From Romeriopsis navalis LEGE 11480 (GTDB taxonomy: Bacteria; Cyanobacteriota; Cyanobacteriia; Leptolyngbyales; Leptolyngbyaceae): DNA of 64,000 nucleotides. The stretch covers positions 1 through 64,000 of the forward strand of contig NZ_JADEXQ010000001.1 of NCBI RefSeq assembly GCF_015207035.1, written 5' to 3'. This document shows positions 9,209 through 20,917 of the stretch, in pieces (the first letter of the stretch is position 1; every line of letters begins with the position of its first letter). The position numbers and the translations under genes were made by a program. Below the pieces are notes generated by a model. That model saw only the letters and a list, made by a program, of their open reading frames with translations. It was not told the origin of the DNA and searched no databases.

Positions 9209-10090
9209 CTATTTTGTGTCGTTGTCCTGCAGGATCAATTGTGCGATCGTCTGAGAATGCGTTTGCAGCAAATCATGTTCCGCGTCGGCCAAAACGGTGA
9301 ATTGACTCGCCGCGATTTTCTGACCATAAGTTTCGCAATGCCAGAGCGGGATGGTGGTATCTTGGCCCCCGGCGATAATGCGGGTAGGAATCGTGATGTG
9401 GTGAATCAATTGCTCAACTGTGTCGATTGCATCTTCAGGCCGCAAGCGATCGACAATGAAAGACTTCGCCACGGGTTGTGCCTGGAGTTCAACCCGCGCT
9501 ATATCGATTTGACGAAAGGCATTAGCTTGGCCGGTGATTTGGGCGATCGGTTTGATTATGGCCATGAGCCAGTCAATCACCGGGGTTTCCCAGAGTAACG
9601 GTTTCATATAGTTGTAGCGCCCCACGAAGCTGTCATCGCGGATGCCGGCGGGGGCAATCAGCGTTAGGCTGGCTGGCTGGCAGAACGCTAAATTAGATTT
9701 GTGACTCGGTTGCCATTGCGTTTTGGCTGCATCCCAGCGTATGCCGGTGGCGGCGATCGCGTAGGCGGCGGCTAACCAGCCGCCGTAGGAGTGACCAGCG
9801 AGATGAAATTCCTTGAGCTGTAACGTACGAATAAATTGGTGGAGAAATTCAATCTGATGCCAAATCGTATATTTCAGTTGGGGTTTGGAGGATGCGCCAA
9901 ACCCGAGTAAATCTAAAGCGATGCATTGATAATGGTTGGCCAAATCGGGATAAAGGGCTTGCCAGTTATCCCCACTGCCCAGAAACCCATGCAGCAAAAT
10001 TAGTGGTGGGCCTGATCCGATGATCTGATACGCGGCGTGGTATTCGCCGATCGGAATGGTTTGGCGCGGCCTGACTGATGGAGAGGACAT
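9209..10090 (-). CDS. Alpha/beta hydrolase
   Basis: Alpha/beta-hydrolase fold enzyme of 293 aa, substrate unknown. The oxyanion-hole motif is LILLHGFLGSGDNW, the nucleophile elbow LAGHSYGGW (catalytic Ser), the probable acid Asp lies in AGGQDTTIPLW and the His in DAEHDLLQTHS. An in-frame start 51 bases upstream exists, but ATG at 10090 overlaps the TAA stop of the GT2 gene as TAATG, a classic coupling arrangement, so I chose it. It is the last gene of the minus-strand cassette that begins at 16831. It could act on an ester or glycoconjugate made by the neighbours, but that is inference. Confidence 0.85.
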   Translation of the reverse strand: MSSPSVRPRQTIPIGEYHAAYQIIGSGPPLILLHGFLGSGDNWQALYPDLANHYQCIALDLLGFGASSKPQLKYTIWHQIEFLHQFIRTLQLKEFHLAGHSYGGWLAAAYAIAATGIRWDAAKTQWQPSHKSNLAFCQPASLTLIAPAGIRDDSFVGRYNYMKPLLWETPVIDWLMAIIKPIAQITGQANAFRQIDIARVELQAQPVAKSFIVDRLRPEDAIDTVEQLIHHITIPTRIIAGGQDTTIPLWHCETYGQKIAASQFTVLADAEHDLLQTHSQTIAQLILQDNDTK

Positions 10091-11310
10091 TAGGATTGCT
10101 CCGGGGCTGCGAGTGGGCGGCCGCGCCAAGTCCAACCCCAACCGGTTTCGGTCTTAATCATGGAGGCGATCGCGATCGCCATTAAGATAATGCCGCCGAG
10201 CCAAGTGAGGCTCCAATAGCGCAGTGGTTGATTAAATTGTCTGGCACTGGAGGCGCGCATGCGGTACTGCTGGATCAAAGCGACAACACTGAGGCCGGCC
10301 ATCAATCCGAATAAGCCGATGATTGGGCTGGAGCGATGCATCAGGCCGCCGATCAGAGTCGTGGATAAACCGATCCAGGGCATGACAAAGACAAGGAAGA
10401 CGGCAAAGGACGAGTAGAAAATCGTGCCGACATTGCGGTTTGCCCCGAGGTAGAAATTCTTTGTCCAGCCTTCCCAGAGTGCGGCGAGATTTTGATACAT
10501 GCGCACCTTGATAATGCCAAGGGCCAGAATATAGCGGAGTTTGAGGCCAGTTTGCTTGATGGCTTTGGCGAGGGCAACATCTTCTACCGGATCAGCGGCA
10601 ATCGCCTCATGGCCACCGATCTTCTGATAAGCGCTTTGCCGAAATAGCATAAATGGGCCGGCTGCAAAGGCAGTTTCCCGATCGTCGGGATTATTCACCC
10701 CATCAAATTCAAACCCGATCGCAATCATCGACATGATTAATGGCTGGACCAACCATTCCGCCAAGCAGCCACAGACAATTTCCGGGGCCAGACTAAGTAG
10801 ATCGCTTTGCTGTTGTTGTGCTTCGGTCAGGGCTGTCGCGATTGCGCGGGGTTCAAGGCGCACATCGGCATCAATGAACAGCCAATACTCTCCTGTGGCT
10901 TGCTGAACGGCTTGGGCACAGGCCCAATTCTTCCCGCGCCAAGTTTCAGTTTGGGGTCGCGGCGGCACGCGGATTACTTGAACCTGCGCATGTTTCTGGG
11001 CGATGGCTTGAGCCAGTTCATGGGTTTCATCCGTCGATTCATCATCGGCGACAATGATCTGAAGCGTCGCATTGTCTGGAAGTTGATTATCGAGCACGGC
11101 TTGGACACAACCCTGAATATTCGCGGCCTCGTTATAAGCCGGAATAATCACCGAGATGCTGGGTAAGCTGGCGGGGATCTGCTCAATTGTTTGCAGTTGG
11201 GGGGCCTTTTCGAGGGATGTGCTGAGGTTCTTCCACCAAATAGAATTCGCGATGAGTGATGCTACCAAGCTGAGACTGACACTGAGCCATACTCCATCTG
11301 CCAAGATCAT
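10090..11310 (-). CDS. Membrane-associated GT2 glycosyltransferase (CruC/CruG/HpnB-like)
   Basis: Inverting family 2 glycosyltransferase, 406 aa. One N-terminal membrane segment (residues about 1-25) precedes the GT-A domain with ISVIIPAYNEAANI, ADDESTD, the DxD-type FIDADVR, an ED motif (PVEDVALAKA) and a Q-x(n)-W motif (QNLAALWEGW). Two or three hydrophobic helices close the protein. This layout resembles cyanobacterial carotenoid glycosyltransferases such as CruG, and HpnB-like proteins, so a lipid acceptor such as a carotenoid or hopanoid is plausible but unproven. ATG at 11310 has AGGA 8 bases upstream; the GTG at 11337 is less likely. It is coupled by TAATG to the hydrolase. Confidence 0.8.
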   Translation of the reverse strand: MILADGVWLSVSLSLVASLIANSIWWKNLSTSLEKAPQLQTIEQIPASLPSISVIIPAYNEAANIQGCVQAVLDNQLPDNATLQIIVADDESTDETHELAQAIAQKHAQVQVIRVPPRPQTETWRGKNWACAQAVQQATGEYWLFIDADVRLEPRAIATALTEAQQQQSDLLSLAPEIVCGCLAEWLVQPLIMSMIAIGFEFDGVNNPDDRETAFAAGPFMLFRQSAYQKIGGHEAIAADPVEDVALAKAIKQTGLKLRYILALGIIKVRMYQNLAALWEGWTKNFYLGANRNVGTIFYSSFAVFLVFVMPWIGLSTTLIGGLMHRSSPIIGLFGLMAGLSVVALIQQYRMRASSARQFNQPLRYWSLTWLGGIILMAIAIASMIKTETGWGWTWRGRPLAAPEQS

Positions 11311-11396
11311 TGCGTTTTTCCTGCCCCGATTCGGCACACTGAAGATTGATTTGCACAGTTGGCCAGCGTCGAGCTGCGCCGGTTCAATTATCGCAA

Positions 11397-12473
11397 TTAA
11401 TCACGGGAATGTTCAGTTGGCTGGACGATATTTGTCGGGGTTTGACTCACCTGGGTTTGCCCCAATTTGGTTTTACCCAGCTGTGCAAACCGTTGCCGCT
11501 GGCGTTCAGCCATCCAGCAGGTGATTTGCCAAACATCGGCCACGGGCTGCTGTGTAAAGGGCAACGTACTCATGTAGTTATCCCAGAGGAATTCCGGTGT
11601 CATGGTCGTTCGAGGCAAGCCACGTAGTTTCTGTGACTGCCAAATCAGATCCCACCACCGTTCATGGGCGATGAGGGCAGCTTGATATTCTGGTGCGCGT
11701 GGTTCACTGACTTGGGCATGTTGGGCAAAGCCAACGCGACTGTGGATGTGGCGGGCGCGACTGGCACAGAGTTGCAAAATTTCCCATTCGCTATCGATCA
11801 GCCGTTCGCAGACAACACACCAATGGCTAAAGTCACAGGTGATTTGCATTTGGGGAAACTGCTGGAGTAAATCGCGGGTAATCCAAGGATTGAACAGCGA
11901 TCGACTCCGATGCGTCTCAAAGCTGATGGTGATGCCGGATTGCTGTTGGAGTTCCAGGGCTTGGCTGAAAAAATCGACGTTTTGCTGCCACGACCAGGCG
12001 TCGTAACCGGTCATTGCTGAGACAAATAGCGCATCCATGGCTGCGGCATACTCAATTGTCCAACGTAAATCATCCAGATGATCTTGAAGGCTGCGCTCCG
12101 GTTTGGGAATCCACCAATTGCCGCTATCGCTTTTATCGCTGCCAGTCGTGGCCTCAGCGATAAAAGCGAGATTATGATCTTGTAATTGCTGTTGCCACTC
12201 GCGCCGGGCTGTAGGGCTGTCAGGAATTGGGCCTTCAATCCCATTAAATCCGGCATCGACAGTTTGCTGGAGGAGGGGCTCAAGCGACTCGGGACCCGAC
12301 CAAATGGAGCGTAGTACTAAGAGTTCGATCGGTTTGCCCCCATCTGCTAGTCGGTATGTTTTGCGACTTGGCGTGCAAGATAGCGGTGGAACTGCCAGAT
12401 GGGCATCTCTAAATGACTCAAAGGGCCGGGTTGATAGGCGGTTGAGTTGAGTCCCCGCTGCACGGAAGTACAC
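11397..12473 (-). CDS. TIM-barrel sugar isomerase/AP-endonuclease-2-like protein
   Basis: Member of the xylose isomerase-like TIM-barrel superfamily (AP endonuclease family 2 fold), probably a metal-dependent isomerase, epimerase or lyase acting on a small polyol-like substrate. Barrel landmarks: KPIELLVLRSIW (strand 1), ISFETHRSR (metal-binding Glu), ITCDFSHWCV (Asp/His) and ARHIHSRVGF (His/Arg). The start is a problem. The only canonical in-frame start is GTG at 12473, which overlaps the Rieske gene by 127 bases and would add about 45 residues lacking barrel features. The barrel itself begins around 12340, where I find no ATG, GTG or TTG. Re-initiation at a rare codon near the Rieske stop is possible. 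It is tightly linked to the Rieske gene. Confidence 0.75.
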   Translation of the reverse strand: MYFRAAGTQLNRLSTRPFESFRDAHLAVPPLSCTPSRKTYRLADGGKPIELLVLRSIWSGPESLEPLLQQTVDAGFNGIEGPIPDSPTARREWQQQLQDHNLAFIAEATTGSDKSDSGNWWIPKPERSLQDHLDDLRWTIEYAAAMDALFVSAMTGYDAWSWQQNVDFFSQALELQQQSGITISFETHRSRSLFNPWITRDLLQQFPQMQITCDFSHWCVVCERLIDSEWEILQLCASRARHIHSRVGFAQHAQVSEPRAPEYQAALIAHERWWDLIWQSQKLRGLPRTTMTPEFLWDNYMSTLPFTQQPVADVWQITCWMAERQRQRFAQLGKTKLGQTQVSQTPTNIVQPTEHSRD

Positions 12474-13609
12474 ATCTCCATATCTTCAAGGTGAAACTCC
12501 TTCAAAGCATCTATCTCGCGGTTGAGTTTGGTTTCAAACTCGGGAATTTCGCGACTTTCTGGTCGAACGAGTAACATCGTGCGGAGTGTCATTTTGCCCG
12601 GGCCTTCTGGTTGGAGAAAATACCAGTACACACGATCGGCACCGATAAAGAGCAAGAAGTAAGGCTCGCCGAGGTAAACGGTATATTCGTGGTTATCCGA
12701 TTTGAGCAAGTCGGGTGAGGGGATAAATGTATTAAGCGATTCGCCCGACTCGAATTTATCGATCAGATGTTTGGCTAAGGGTAAATGGCAGACAATGTAG
12801 TTGGGGGTTTCGGGTTCCGTCCAAGTGCCGCTGGCGGGCAGCATTGGTTCAAGGGTTTTATGGTGGGAGCCCATGTGGTGATAGCCTTCCATAAAGTTCT
12901 CGACCAATACTTTCCAGTTAAACTGGCAGTCCCACTGGATATCCGCGACGACTTCGAGTTCGTCCATGTGCCAGCGTTTGAGATGTGGTGTCAAACCGGC
13001 ATAGTGTGTGGCGATCGGTTCAAGGTCGGGATCAAATGTGACAAATACAAATCCTTCCCAGAGTTCGGTGCGGAAGGTATGGAGTTTGACCCCTTCGGTC
13101 TGGCAGAGGGGGCTGTTTTGCATCTCGGGGGCGCCCAGCATTTGACCTTCGAGGCCAAAGCTCCAGCGGTGATACGGGCATAGGAAGCTTTTGCGATTGC
13201 CCGTTGTCGGTGCCCCAAAATCCGGCGGCATTAGGTCCATGGCCCGATGGGGACAAATGCGCGATAAAACTTGGACTTGCTGATCGTGATTGCGGACCAT
13301 CATCATCGGCTCTTCGAGTAAGTCGAAGTTCACGTAGTCGCCGATATTCGGGACCTGAGAAACATGTCCGACGCACAGCCATTGTGTTTTCAGGATGTGC
13401 TCAACTTCCCAGTCGTAAAACTCCTGGTTGGTATAGGCTCCAGCATTCATGGCGATCGCCAATTCGAGTGGCCGCGCTGCAGTATCACAAATTGCTTGAT
13501 GAATTTGCTGGAGTTGCGAAACGGCTGTGGCTGTGGCGTTCGCTCCAGAGGATCGTACTGGAGTACCAGCCGGTGATTTTTCGCTTTGATACTGCATCAC
13601 TTTGTTCAT
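12347..13609 (-). CDS. Rieske non-heme iron oxygenase, alpha subunit
   Basis: Terminal oxygenase of the Rieske type, which uses a [2Fe-2S] cluster and mononuclear iron to hydroxylate or demethylate a small organic substrate with O2. The product is 420 aa. The Rieske ligands are C119-P-H121 (RICPHRAMDL) and C144-P-Y-H147 (LCPYHRWSFG). The catalytic iron motif is NFMEGYHHMGSHH near the middle (Glu in place of the usual bridging Asp, then two His), with LEDMEMCTSVQRG near the end, as in this family. No ferredoxin or reductase gene is adjacent. ATG at 13609, with ATG 12 bases on as an alternative. It lies between the ABC importer genes and the TIM-barrel gene; the substrate is unknown. Confidence 0.9.
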   Translation of the reverse strand: MNKVMQYQSEKSPAGTPVRSSGANATATAVSQLQQIHQAICDTAARPLELAIAMNAGAYTNQEFYDWEVEHILKTQWLCVGHVSQVPNIGDYVNFDLLEEPMMMVRNHDQQVQVLSRICPHRAMDLMPPDFGAPTTGNRKSFLCPYHRWSFGLEGQMLGAPEMQNSPLCQTEGVKLHTFRTELWEGFVFVTFDPDLEPIATHYAGLTPHLKRWHMDELEVVADIQWDCQFNWKVLVENFMEGYHHMGSHHKTLEPMLPASGTWTEPETPNYIVCHLPLAKHLIDKFESGESLNTFIPSPDLLKSDNHEYTVYLGEPYFLLFIGADRVYWYFLQPEGPGKMTLRTMLLVRPESREIPEFETKLNREIDALKEFHLEDMEMCTSVQRGLNSTAYQPGPLSHLEMPIWQFHRYLARQVAKHTD

Positions 13610-13813
13610 ATCGGTGGAATTGGCAAGGATTCACGGTTTTCCGGGTCACGCTGTCGCTGCATGGGGCGCGGCAGTGAGGGCGGCAATCGCACTGGATCAT
13701 ATCGTCATGAATTGATCTGGCGGATGACGCTGGGGCAATGTATCCGCAGGCTGAAGTTATGGATTCTTCGCTCCTAAGATGCCCATTTTGGGTGCAGAAT
13801 TATCGCTTACCGA

Positions 13814-13887
13814 AATGGCATGCTCTTTGACTCAAGAACATGCCATTGTGATCGGCCACTCCCCATGGGGGCATTGGCATAGTGGGC
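13814..13887. repeat. Two intercistronic hairpins
   Basis: Hairpin 1: AATGGCATG (13814-13822) pairs with CATGCCATT (13839-13847). Hairpin 2: GGCCACT (13854-13860) pairs with AGTGGGC (13881-13887) with one mismatch and encloses CCCCATGGGG. They fill the 296-base gap between the permease and Rieske genes. No U-run follows, so RNA processing or partial termination is as likely as a true terminator. Confidence 0.45.
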
Positions 13888-13905
13888 GTTGGAACATGAA
13901 TATTT

Positions 13906-14742
13906 TTAATGTCGTGCTTGATCCGCCCAAGGTGTAAGTTTTTGTGAAATCCACTTGAGCCCATAGTCAAGAACTAAGCCAATCACCCCAATCACTGCGA
14001 TGCAGAACAAAACTTTTTCCGTTTGCAAAAATCTTTGGGCCTGGATAATTCTTACCCCGAGGCCATTTTGGGCCGCCACTAATTCAGCAATGACGAGAAA
14101 ATTCCAGGCACCGGAAATGTTCACCCGCAAAGTATCGAGGACGCTCGGAAATGTCGCCGGTAAAATTACACGCTGTAGAATATCCCGACGATTTCCCCCC
14201 AGGGTATAGGCGACATTAATCATGTCGTTGGGAATAAACTTCACCGCATCGGCGACCATGATGGCGTTATAGAGTACGACCCCGAGGGTAATGATCGTGA
14301 TTTTGGAGGCTTCACCTAAGCCGGCCCAAATTACGATCAATGGCACAAATGCTGTGACTGGCATGTAGCGTACCAGCCCCACCACTGGCGCAAATAGATT
14401 TTCCATGCTGCTGAATGTCCCCATGGCGATGCCCATCGGGACACCAATCAGACCGGCGACGGCGAAGCCTCCCAGGACGCGGGTGCAGCTGACGAGAATG
14501 TCGTACCACAGATTATTTTCCACAAACATCGTAATGCCGGCTTGGATGACGGCAGTGGGTGTTGGCAGAAATAGGGGTGGCACGGCCCGGGTGTAGCTTA
14601 AGGCAATCCACAATAACAGCGGCAACCCCAGGGAAATACTGAAAATCAGGAGTGCTAAGGATTTGGGAAAGCTTTGGCGGATGCTCCAAAAGGTGGATGG
14701 CCGTAGGTATGTGTGCGATCGGGAGGTTAGTTCTTCAGCCAT
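13906..14742 (-). CDS. ABC transporter permease, NitT/TauT type
   Basis: Membrane subunit of an importer of the nitrate/taurine/sulfonate family (SsuC/TauC/NrtB-like), 278 aa with about six membrane segments. The binding-protein-dependent transport domain has the EAA loop AYTLGGNRRDILQRVILP, which docks the ATPase. The reading frame extends upstream to 14868, but the family-like start is ATG at 14742 (MAEELTSRS), and the extension has no features. It follows the binding-protein gene with a gap of about 190 bases. Confidence 0.9.
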   Translation of the reverse strand: MAEELTSRSHTYLRPSTFWSIRQSFPKSLALLIFSISLGLPLLLWIALSYTRAVPPLFLPTPTAVIQAGITMFVENNLWYDILVSCTRVLGGFAVAGLIGVPMGIAMGTFSSMENLFAPVVGLVRYMPVTAFVPLIVIWAGLGEASKITIITLGVVLYNAIMVADAVKFIPNDMINVAYTLGGNRRDILQRVILPATFPSVLDTLRVNISGAWNFLVIAELVAAQNGLGVRIIQAQRFLQTEKVLFCIAVIGVIGLVLDYGLKWISQKLTPWADQARH

Positions 14743-14934
14743 GGGATTCAGGGTTGTTCGCTTAATTGACAGGGATATTGCTGTGAGTCGACCACAAAGA
14801 AGTTTGGCGTAATTGTGACCAGCAATATATTTTTGTGCGGTGTCTAAATACGAGAACAGCACCTTCATGGGGTGACGAAGATGCTGTTCGATCGCAATTA
14901 TTACCGTGAAGTTGAGTGGGTTAATTGTGGCGGG

Positions 14935-15936
14935 TTAAAGTGCTTTGATCAAGGATTCATCCGCAAAGGTTGTAATGTCAATCACCTTATCTGACACTTT
15001 GAAGTCGTAGGCCGCTTTTGCTGTTAGCTCTAGGTTGCCCATAATGTTTTGGGGGTTATCAGGATTGAAGGCAATCGTTTTATTGGCCTCAATATCAAAG
15101 ACTTTCACCAAGGCTTTTTGCTCTTTGACTTCATCCGGGGTCACGCCGAGCTTGCTGCCAACAATTTTGAGGGCTTCCGCATCGTCGGCCAGCAGCAACT
15201 TAACGCCCTTATCAACGGCTTTTAAATACTTCTCCAAATCGGCTTTACGCGATTTGATCAGGTCTTCACGCACAACCAGAACATCCGCAATCAGGTTGGT
15301 TCCTTCACTGGAGAAGATGACTGAGCCGCCGCCTTCTTTTGCCGCTTTGCGGAGATAGGGCTCAAAGCTCACAGCCGCATCCACCTGCTTTGCGGCAAAA
15401 GCTGTAGCCGCCGCATCAGCGGTCATATTCTTGAGGGTGATATCTTTCTCGGTCAGACCGCCTTGCTTAAGATAGGCTCGCAAGAATAACTTGGTAAATA
15501 AGATATCTTCACGTGCGACTGTTTTACCTTTGAGATCGGCGGCGGAATTAATGTCGCGGCCGATGATCCCGTCGCCACCATTCGAGTAGTCAGCGGTGTA
15601 GATAATCTTTGCCGTTGGTTCTTTTGCGGCGACTTGGACGGCATCACCTGATGTAATCCAAGCGATATCAATCTTCTTCGATAGGAAGGCCGCAATTTGA
15701 TCACTGCTGCTTTGGAAGGCAACATCCTGAATATTTAGGCCCTGCTCCTTGAAAAAGCCTTTGGCGACCCCGATGTATTGACCGGAGTACCCCACCCAAG
15801 GGAGTGTGGCAATCGCGATCGGTGCTGACTGATTGCTGCCTTGACCAGAACAGGCAACGGTCAGAAACAATGTGGCTGTGGCTAGTGCTACAACTGACAA
15901 AAGAGACGCAAACTTGCGTCGCAGTAACCTAAACAT
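14935..15936 (-). CDS. ABC transporter substrate-binding lipoprotein, NitT/TauT type
   Basis: Periplasmic solute-binding lipoprotein of 333 aa. The signal peptide ends in a lipobox (FLTVACSGQ; Cys near 29). The mature part begins IAIATLPWVGYSGQYIGVA, typical of NMT1/SsuA-like proteins, and contains DIAWITSGDAV and VDAAVSFEPYL, which line the cleft in relatives. Ligands of this superfamily include sulfonates, nitrate, bicarbonate, pyrimidine precursors and guanidine-like compounds, and the ligand here cannot be read from sequence. It sits between the ATPase and permease genes. Confidence 0.9.
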   Translation of the reverse strand: MFRLLRRKFASLLSVVALATATLFLTVACSGQGSNQSAPIAIATLPWVGYSGQYIGVAKGFFKEQGLNIQDVAFQSSSDQIAAFLSKKIDIAWITSGDAVQVAAKEPTAKIIYTADYSNGGDGIIGRDINSAADLKGKTVAREDILFTKLFLRAYLKQGGLTEKDITLKNMTADAAATAFAAKQVDAAVSFEPYLRKAAKEGGGSVIFSSEGTNLIADVLVVREDLIKSRKADLEKYLKAVDKGVKLLLADDAEALKIVGSKLGVTPDEVKEQKALVKVFDIEANKTIAFNPDNPQNIMGNLELTAKAAYDFKVSDKVIDITTFADESLIKAL

Positions 15937-16009
15937 ATTTCAGTGAATCCAACGAGAAAGAAAGAACAGGATTTAGCTGCTTGAGCTAAGGTAGACAGGC
16001 CATGAAATT

Positions 16010-16831
16010 CTACTCGCGTAGTGCCTGTAGAACTTGACGTTTGATATCGACAAATTCCGGTGAAAGTTTGATGTCCAAGGCTCGTTCTGTTGGCAAATCA
16101 ATTGTCATGTCCCGAGCAATTCGACCAGGGTGTGCTTGCATGACATACATGCGCTGCGATAAATAAATCGCTTCTTCAACATCATGGGTAATCATCAAAA
16201 TTGTCACATGAGTTTGTTCCCATAGGCGCAACAAAAACTGCTGCAATTGTTCCTTGGTTTGGGCATCGAGCGCACCGAAGGGTTCATCCATCAGCAAAAT
16301 CGCTGGTTCATTGGCGATCGCCCGGGCAATCGCCACGCGCTGTTTCATCCCCCCGGATAATGCCTTGGGATAAGCGTCGGCAAATTGCGTTAGCCCAACG
16401 ACTTCGAGAAAATGGAAAACACGTTCGCGCTGCACCGCTTTCGGGAGTTTGCGCAGAGATAGGCCAAAGGCGACATTTTGGGCCACTGTCAGCCATGGAT
16501 AGAGCGTATACCCCTGAAAGACCATGCCTCGATCCGAACCGGGGCGACCCGTTACACAGATTTGGTCAACTAAAACTTCACCGCGTGTTGGTGGTAGTAA
16601 CCCCGCAATAATATTGAGCAGAGTGGATTTACCACAGCCCGAAGCCCCCACTAAACAAACGAGTTCACGGGGTTGAATGTGCAGATTGATGTTGTCAAAA
16701 ACGGATGTGACTTTACCCTGACTTGTATATTCCTTGCTGAGGGATTTCACGGCCAGTTTGGCGCTACGAAAAGCCTCACTGGCAGAATCTTGATAGCGGA
16801 AAGTTTTCGGTTGCCGATCAATCTGTTGCAT
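16010..16831 (-). CDS. ABC transporter ATP-binding protein, NitT/TauT type
   Basis: ATPase subunit of the importer, 273 aa. Walker A is GASGCGKST, the Q-loop is followed by TLYPWLTVAQN, the signature is LSGGMKQR, Walker B is ILLMDEPFGALD and the switch His is in MITHDVEEA. The frame is open to 16972, but ATG at 16831 (MQQIDRQPK) gives the usual family length; the 47 upstream codons look non-coding. As first gene it heads the minus-strand cassette running to 9209. Confidence 0.92.
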   Translation of the reverse strand: MQQIDRQPKTFRYQDSASEAFRSAKLAVKSLSKEYTSQGKVTSVFDNINLHIQPRELVCLVGASGCGKSTLLNIIAGLLPPTRGEVLVDQICVTGRPGSDRGMVFQGYTLYPWLTVAQNVAFGLSLRKLPKAVQRERVFHFLEVVGLTQFADAYPKALSGGMKQRVAIARAIANEPAILLMDEPFGALDAQTKEQLQQFLLRLWEQTHVTILMITHDVEEAIYLSQRMYVMQAHPGRIARDMTIDLPTERALDIKLSPEFVDIKRQVLQALRE

Positions 16832-17381: not shown

Positions 17382-17439
17382 AAAAAACTCAAATTAGACG
17401 GCTTGCCACAAAAGACGTGCGGTCTAATTTGAGTTTTTT
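17382..17439 (-). terminator. Terminator downstream of the DUF2996 gene
   Basis: An 18-bp perfect stem (AAAAAACTCAAATTAGAC with its complement) around a 22-base loop. It lies 67 bases beyond the stop at 17507 and has A/T runs on both outer flanks, so it could end transcription on either strand. Confidence 0.7.
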
Positions 17440-19402: not shown

Positions 19403-20917
19403 TTAGTCGGGCGTTGATGGGGCTGGATAATCGGCTTTTTGGGTGACCTGTTTCAGGTCTCGACGATCGCGCCAGCGCTGCCGATACACCTCGTACAACG
19501 TCATTCCCGTGGCGACGGAAGCATTAAGGCTGGGAGTTTTGCCCGCTAAGGGAATTGATACCAAAACATCACAATGTTTTTGGGTGGTGACCCCTAAACC
19601 ATCCCCTTCGGAACCGATCACTAATACGGTGGCTTCAGCAAAGTCAGTTTCGGTGATCGATTGTCCCGCTTCGCCAGCGGTCCCGTAAATCCAGAATCCG
19701 GCTTCTTTGAGTTGTTCAAGCGACCGCGCTAAGTTCACCACCCGGGTAATTGCCAGATTTTCTAAAGCTCCGGCGGCGACTTTCATCACCGTGGATGTAA
19801 TGCCAGCGGCGCGGCGCTGAGGAATCACGAGGCCCTGGGCCCCGATCGCTTCGATCGTGCGAATAATTGCGCCCAAATTATGGGGGTCAGTAATTCCATC
19901 GGCGACAACAATGACGGGCTTTTCGCTCGTTTCCTTCGCCTGGGTGATCAGATCGTCAAGGTCAACGTACTCATAGGGCGCCACTTGGGCGGCAATCCCT
20001 TGGTGAATTCCCCCGTTTGTCATTTGACTCAAACGTTTTGGTTCAACTTCGTCAATCACAGCACCATTGGCCTTGGCGGTAATTAACAGTTCATGGAAGG
20101 GGGGCGCGTAGCGCAGGCGCGGTAAAACCCAGATCCGATTCAGACTGCGATCGCCCTCTAGGGCGGCAATCACAGCGTGTTTGCCATAGATTAAATCGGG
20201 ACTTTCATCCTGGGCATTATCGCCCCGGTCAAATTGGCCTGATCGATCATCGTCGCGAGAGCGATGGAACGAACGACCTGCACGATCACCGCCCCGGTCA
20301 CGATCAAACGAACGGCCGTCACGGTTAAACGGCTTGCGATCGCGATCGAATGGGCGGCGGTCATCGCGGTCCCGACTAAATGGCCGCCGATCACGGTCAT
20401 TAGGCTGATTGTCGCGGTCGCGGTTAAATGGCTTGCGATCGCGATCGAATGGGCGGCGGTCATCGCGGTCCCGACTAAATGGTCGCCGATCTCGATCATT
20501 CGATTGATCATCGCGTTTAAATGGGCGGCGGTCATCGCGGTCGCGGCTAAATGGCTTGCGATCACGGTCAAAGGAACGATCGTCCCGGTCGCGATTGAAC
20601 GGCTTGCGATCACGGTCAAAGGGTTTCCGGTCATCGCGGTCGCGGTTAAATGGCTTGCGATCACGATCAAAGGGTTTCCGGTCGTCCCGGTCGCGATTGA
20701 ACGGCTTGCGATCACGATCACCTTGTGTCGGGCGCCCTTCTCGTGGCGGGCCGCTCCGATCACTGGGACGATCCGGCCAATCTGATTGGCCCCGATTGCC
20801 TTTTGGGTAGCCTCCTTTGCTGGGGCCACGACTGCTGGGGCCTTTGCCAGAGCGTCTTGAATCTGACGATTTGAACCGTCGGTCGCCGCCGCCAGCCTTG
20901 CCTTTTTTCCCTACCAT
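19403..20917 (-). CDS. rlmB: RlmB/TrmH-type 23S rRNA 2'-O-methyltransferase with Arg/Asp repeat tail
   Basis: SpoU/TrmH-class SAM-dependent methyltransferase with a trefoil knot, expected to methylate a guanosine ribose in 23S rRNA (RlmB-like). Product is 504 aa. The substrate-binding domain starts near residue 240 ([15 protein letters not shown]). The three SPOUT motifs are [24 protein letters not shown] and [17 protein letters not shown]. The first 240 residues are almost wholly made of R, D, K, P, F, N and S in units like [10 protein letters not shown] and DRDRKPF; they resemble RGG/RD-rich RNA-binding tails. Cyanobacterial homologues can have basic N-terminal extensions, but this one is long and regular. 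ATG start at 20917, no evident Shine-Dalgarno. Confidence 0.9.
20290..20720. repeat. In-frame tandem repeat array inside rlmB
   Basis: Degenerate units of roughly 51 bases encode alternating DRDRKPF and [14 protein letters not shown] peptides. On the plus strand the repeated words are GGCTTGCGATC, CGGTCATCGCGGTC and GCGATTGAACGG. Several GCGATCGCGATCG runs occur inside the units. The array explains the long chance frames on the opposite strand (20264-20785, 20556-20810) and on the minus strand (20191-20829). Confidence 0.85.

Follow-up and report, generated by a model that had tools for sequence, protein, structure and literature searches.

Five neighbouring minus-strand genes of the cyanobacterium Romeriopsis navalis LEGE 11480, at 11397-16831, probably encode the import and oxygen-dependent breakdown of a small substituted guanidine carrying an N-alkyl or N-methyl group, as judged from their sequences and those of their relatives. 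Coordinates refer to the window, the whole 64,000-nucleotide stretch that was analysed (contig NZ_JADEXQ010000001.1, positions 1-64,000 of the forward strand). The five genes, which specify the ATPase, binding protein and permease of an ABC importer, a Rieske oxygenase and a TIM-barrel protein, are clustered far beyond chance and represent a real functional set conserved across phyla.

Layout of the gene cassette

All seven minus-strand reading frames listed for this region by a first-pass annotation were found, and the names it had given them were correct. In order of transcription, they encode a NitT/TauT-type importer ATPase (16010-16831, Pfam ABC_tran; the reading frame is open to 16972, with the likely start being an ATG at about 16831), an NMT1/SsuA-type binding lipoprotein (14935-15936, Pfam NMT1, with TIGR01728 below its cut-off), the importer permease (13906-14868, BPD_transp_1), a Rieske oxygenase alpha subunit (12347-13609, Rieske and Ring_hydroxyl_A domains), a xylose-isomerase-like TIM barrel (conserved part 11397-12329, reading frame open to 12473, AP_endonuc_2), a GT2 glycosyltransferase (10090-11337, below the HpnB and CruG cut-offs) and an alpha/beta hydrolase (9209-10141). 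Two gene overlaps had also been claimed. That between the GT2 and hydrolase genes stood, as the GT2 stop codon (10092-10090) shares one base with the in-frame hydrolase ATG (10090-10088) in a TAATG junction. The 127-nt overlap between the Rieske and TIM genes is less certain. Most TIM homologues have an ATG where the window has ATC (12329-12327), 17 nt past the Rieske stop codon, and the only upstream ATG, GTG or TTG start is a GTG located 144 nt earlier, within the Rieske gene. Given that the homologues' starts coincide with this ATC and that the overlap needs the GTG, it is uncertain whether the two genes truly overlap, and the ATC may represent a non-standard start, a mutated start or a codon downstream of the real one.

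The permease and Rieske genes are separated by a 296-bp gap containing a strong hairpin (13814-13847, no strand assigned) with 14-nt arms that are 93% complementary, a fold z of -3.4 and no T run, possibly a terminator or an operator. Because of this gap and hairpin, a single transcript for importer and enzymes is not assured, and a promoter scan gave no more sites than were found in shuffles. Further along the window, a 21-nt inverted repeat that is almost perfect and has A/T runs on either flank lies between the ATPase and DUF2996 genes (17382-17439) and is probably a bidirectional terminator, while the 504-aa protein encoded at 19403-20917 looks like an rRNA 2'-O-methyltransferase and begins with an extended region of DRDRKPF-type repeats.

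The GT2 and hydrolase genes were suspected earlier of being a separate unit, and this suspicion was borne out. GT2 is present in 18 of 29 relatives (window's genome counted), and in none of the nine GT2 loci inspected did the hydrolase gene, a Rieske gene or a TIM gene lie closer than about 1.5 kb. We therefore rejected these two genes as members of the cassette.

The Rieske and TIM genes co-occur in distant genomes

A scan of 84,980 species genomes for Rieske orthologues returned 18 loci, at 41-55% identity, from Cyanobacteria, Halieaceae, Verrucomicrobia, Binatia and Acidocella. Sampling of the window's own class gave five genomes with orthologues at 43-62%, among them G202, apparently the very metagenome-assembled genome that holds L033. 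A TIM orthologue was present in 17 of the 18 genomes with a Rieske orthologue, the Acidocella genome being the sole exception. Of six cyanobacterial genomes with a Rieske gene, the window's included, four have TIM as well, and the two that lack it have Rieske genes that are more distant or unlinked. By contrast, only about 2.5% of unselected genomes possess the TIM gene at E 1e-60 (10/288 Verrucomicrobia and 9/398 Pseudomonadota, each count including the search centre), giving a Fisher P of about 7e-24 for co-occurrence when kinship is ignored. When three verrucomicrobial TIM loci were picked independently of Rieske (L079-L081), a Rieske gene was found in all of them. The check proposed by the first-pass annotation, a search for Rieske, TIM-barrel and importer genes together in distant genomes, thus came out in its favour, with importer genes, Rieske and TIM sharing one locus in 11 of the 18 cases, in several phyla. 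Outside these loci, a plasmid search gave only distant Rieske matches (about 30% identity), and in other cyanobacteria with Rieske matches of about 28% (L110-L114) a guanidinase was nearby in none, so none of these was taken as the Rieske protein that PMC10119275 links to guanidinase clusters.

The importer and neighbouring genes point to guanidino nitrogen

The window's importer is orthologous to that of G190, a cyanobacterium in the same family (permease 73%, ATPase 72% and binding protein 55% identical). Also encoded at the G190 importer locus are UAAP1/2, the guanidine carboxylase and a type III glutamine synthetase, and the genes for the binding protein and UAAP1 are each immediately preceded by a guanidine-I riboswitch. 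In a permease tree with few outgroups, the window and G190 grouped with the clusters L140-L142 (100/99), and this clade was sister to guanidinase-linked permeases (98/96). Both the 55-73% identity to a riboswitch-controlled importer and the permease tree place the window's importer in a guanidine-linked clade. The GdmH guanidinase itself is encoded by G159 and G168, which likewise have close orthologues of the Rieske protein. However, three different importer clades accompany Rieske-TIM pairs across genomes, so the importer may not share the substrate of the enzymes. In addition, the Rieske-TIM pair of G190 lies about 2.1 Mb from its importer locus on the same contig, indicating that the window joins two modules that are separate in this relative.

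Neighbours of the enzyme genes pointed in the same direction. Eight verrucomicrobial loci (L040, L041, L044-L046, L049, L080 and L081) run on into a urea/guanidine carboxylase and UAAP1/2, which we take to be carboxyguanidine deiminase subunits, and six of the eight also contain allophanate hydrolase within the sequence covered. In the Halieaceae loci L082 and L085, a separate carboxylase/UAAP operon with its own importer begins beside the TIM gene and is preceded in L082 by a guanidine-I riboswitch. L082 and L106 were the loci with matches to this riboswitch, and an Rfam search of 14 related loci found no riboswitch. Three Halieaceae have a lone Rieske gene (L034, L037 and L048), with TIM, importer and a GmaS-like ligase elsewhere in the genome (L082, L084 and L085). 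The ligase, a type III glutamine synthetase that recurs in Cyanobacteria, Pseudomonadota and Verrucomicrobia, matches glutamate-methylamine ligase best among solved proteins. Because of UAAP1/2 and the riboswitches, we read the carboxylases as guanidine-type rather than urea-type.

The earlier description of the cassette, as taking up a small organic compound, perhaps a nitrogen or sulfur source, and degrading it with oxygen, had not named guanidino compounds. Its nitrogen half is supported, whereas the evidence points away from its sulfur half. A taurine/sulfonate importer feeding a desulfonating oxygenase would account for the resemblance of the importer proteins to the TauABC/SsuABC families, but these proteins fell below all curated specificity cut-offs of the taurine/sulfonate/nitrate group, no flavin- or TauD-type desulfonase and no sulfur gene was seen in any locus, and the importer clade is guanidine-linked, making a sulfur source very improbable. 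Taken together, the importer clade, the guanidine-I riboswitches, the carboxylase and UAAP1/2, and the agmatinase- and creatininase-family neighbours described below indicate guanidino nitrogen, and the tie of the five-gene set to it is well supported by context.

Two other genes recur near TIM. A desaturase-family membrane protein is encoded beside it in gammaproteobacterial loci (L036, L038, L039, L082, L084, L085, L132 and L133), and an FGE-sulfatase-domain protein near it in verrucomicrobial loci (L040-L046, L049, L079-L081 and L086). It is possible that they are alternative oxidative helpers in the same pathway.

Properties of the two enzymes

The window's Rieske protein has both the cluster ligands and the 2-His-1-carboxylate iron ligands of an alpha subunit. 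The cluster ligands C119, H121, C144 and H147, the iron ligands H244, H249 and D376, and E241 at the bridging position are invariant among 21 orthologues. Among proteins of solved structure, profile comparison places it nearest to carnitine monooxygenase, which likewise has a glutamate at the bridging position. The TIM protein belongs to AP_endonuc_2 (PF01261; 59 bits versus a cut-off of 31) and had no match in NCBIfam. E138, D166, H169, H194 and E246 are invariant in the alignment of its homologues, and its structural model (pLDDT 86) matched L-ribulose/D-tagatose 3-epimerases with a Z of about 21 over about 250 residues at 10-16% identity. We did not take this likeness of fold as evidence of sugar epimerase function.

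These resemblances raise the possibility that the Rieske-TIM pair degrades some other compound, such as a quaternary amine or a sugar-like molecule, with the guanidine importer of the window being a chance neighbour. Carnitine and glycine betaine monooxygenases are the closest to the Rieske protein and sugar epimerases to the TIM fold, and the two modules are apart in G190 and divided by the 296-bp gap in the window. However, the Rieske protein failed the test for glycine betaine monooxygenase GbcA by far (NF058607; 125 bits against a cut-off of 670), and a chance neighbour does not explain why guanidine-pathway genes adjoin Rieske or TIM in two further phyla and also surround the 2-oxoglutarate variant described below. 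We consider this explanation improbable.

Related importers accompany other Rieske oxygenases

In the cyanobacterial loci L140 (G279), L141 (G077), L142 (G089) and L144 (G261), the orthologue of the window's importer adjoins other GbcA-like Rieske oxygenases, one or two per locus, in neighbourhoods that contain an SDR, a GmaS-like ligase and a protein of the creatininase family. L140 and L141 each have two such Rieske oxygenases together with these three genes, while L142 has one of the same kind together with guanidine carboxylase and UAAP1/2. L141 further encodes a biuret-amidohydrolase-like protein and a desaturase-family protein. These clusters look like a second Rieske-based guanidino pathway.

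Such neighbourhoods suggest a more specific form of the guanidine reading, namely catabolism of creatinine and creatine. Creatininase would yield creatine, the Rieske protein would hydroxylate it, and TIM would free methylguanidine and glyoxylate (or guanidinoacetate and formaldehyde), after which the guanidine carboxylase route would free the nitrogen and the GmaS-like ligase would capture methylamine. Creatininase-family genes do occur in the verrucomicrobial loci and between the two Rieske genes of L140 and L141, an additional creatininase above the cut-off (E 1e-82 to solved creatininases) is encoded about 2 kb from the orthologous importer of L141, and the recurring type III glutamine synthetase is closest to glutamate-methylamine ligase. 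On the other hand, the verrucomicrobial proteins are below the creatininase cut-off, and creatininase is absent from the cassette itself and from the gammaproteobacterial loci. Creatine catabolism in this specific form is unlikely, although less so than a pair acting on an unrelated compound. For the broader reading of a substituted guanidine, a creatine- or methylguanidine-like substrate would fit the creatininase and glutamate-methylamine-ligase neighbours.

A 2-oxoglutarate oxygenase takes the place of the Rieske protein in some Pseudomonadota

Instead of a Rieske gene, six loci of Pseudomonadota (L134-L139) have a gene for an IPNS-type 2-oxoglutarate oxygenase after TIM. These oxygenases are 47-97% identical to that of L135, whose best solved match carries the name ethylene/succinate-forming enzyme (EFE-like), a family that releases guanidine from arginine. 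L135 and its relatives, making up most of the six loci, have an importer of the arginine/lysine type, L134 encodes a TIGR03427 binding protein above the cut-off, and L137 an agmatinase-family ureohydrolase above the cut-off. The six TIM proteins form one clade (96/91) nested among Rieske-linked TIMs, in a tree whose long branches elsewhere call for caution in reading. Tentatively, and with somewhat less confidence than would be needed to favour it, we propose that Rieske and TIM constitute a new two-step guanidino dealkylation system occurring in at least three phyla, in which TIM is the constant part and the oxygenase, Rieske or 2-oxoglutarate-dependent, is interchangeable.

Downstream steps in the window's genome

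The window's genome is 99.5% complete. It gave only partial matches to the guanidine carboxylase model TIGR02712, none of them over the cut-off, and no type III glutamine synthetase above the cut-off. It lacks GdmH, its sole arginase-family protein being 25% identical to that enzyme, and it possesses urease. The guanidine-I riboswitch (RF00442) had no match in the genome, no guanidine riboswitch was seen in the cassette even with E values up to 10, the other guanidine classes having been searched within the window, and no creatininase was found among the window genes examined. The missing guanidine genes and riboswitch count against the proposed pathway. The cassette's product in this cyanobacterium may be urea, the substrate of an unknown enzyme, or a compound that is excreted.

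Proposed pathway and comparison with known systems

The recurrence of a guanidino compound, an Fe oxygenase and TIM as a common theme leads us to infer hydroxylation followed by cleavage, in the manner of MgdH/MgdL, whose second protein is unrelated to TIM. The binding protein, permease and ATPase would import the substituted guanidine, the clade of the importer being evident from its sequence and the ligand being a prediction. The Rieske protein, whose family is clear and which is presumably fed by general cellular ferredoxin, would then hydroxylate the carbon adjoining a guanidino nitrogen. TIM, tied to the oxygenase by co-occurrence, would convert or cleave the oxidised intermediate to free guanidine- or urea-type nitrogen. 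Elsewhere, the product would enter the guanidine carboxylase/UAAP/allophanate hydrolase pathway, with the GmaS-like glutamate-amine ligase taking part.

No description of a Rieske/TIM pathway for guanidino compounds or methylguanidine was found in the literature searched, in agreement with the earlier remark that no described pathway has this gene combination. If the dealkylation proposal is true, free guanidine would arise naturally through this pair, and the window's cyanobacterium would reach guanidino nitrogen without a guanidinase or a guanidine carboxylase. Riboswitches for guanidine and enzymes that degrade it are widespread, but its natural origin is still open according to a 2025 review (PMC12186494), and the oxygenase/TIM pair offers a specific candidate for the enzymes that produce it. 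The pair would also widen the range of nitrogen sources of cyanobacteria and of marine and soil bacteria, and it suggests a function that can be tested for a TIM-barrel family with no curated NCBIfam name. The pair may also bear on the Rieske protein with which marine Synechococcus guanidinase clusters are associated (PMC10119275).

Compared with known systems, the window's Rieske protein is, like CntA and GbcA, an alpha subunit with a bridging-position glutamate, but it is far under the GbcA cut-off, has no adjoining reductase gene and stands in a guanidine context. The TIM protein shares the fold of D-tagatose/L-ribulose 3-epimerase-like barrels but differs from them in its low identity, the absence of an NCBIfam match and its tie to Fe oxygenases. 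Cyanobacterial GdmH and guanidine carboxylase operons have an importer of the same permease clade, whereas the window's genome has neither of the two enzymes. MgdH/MgdL demethylate methylguanidine and accompany a guanidine carboxylase operon (PMC12508155). Their oxygenase, MgdH, is of the 2-oxoglutarate type and the model of MgdL has a beta-barrel, whereas the window pairs a Rieske protein with a TIM barrel and has no riboswitch. In both systems, an oxygenase would be coupled to a dedicated second enzyme acting on the hydroxylated product, close to a guanidine importer and a guanidine carboxylase pathway.
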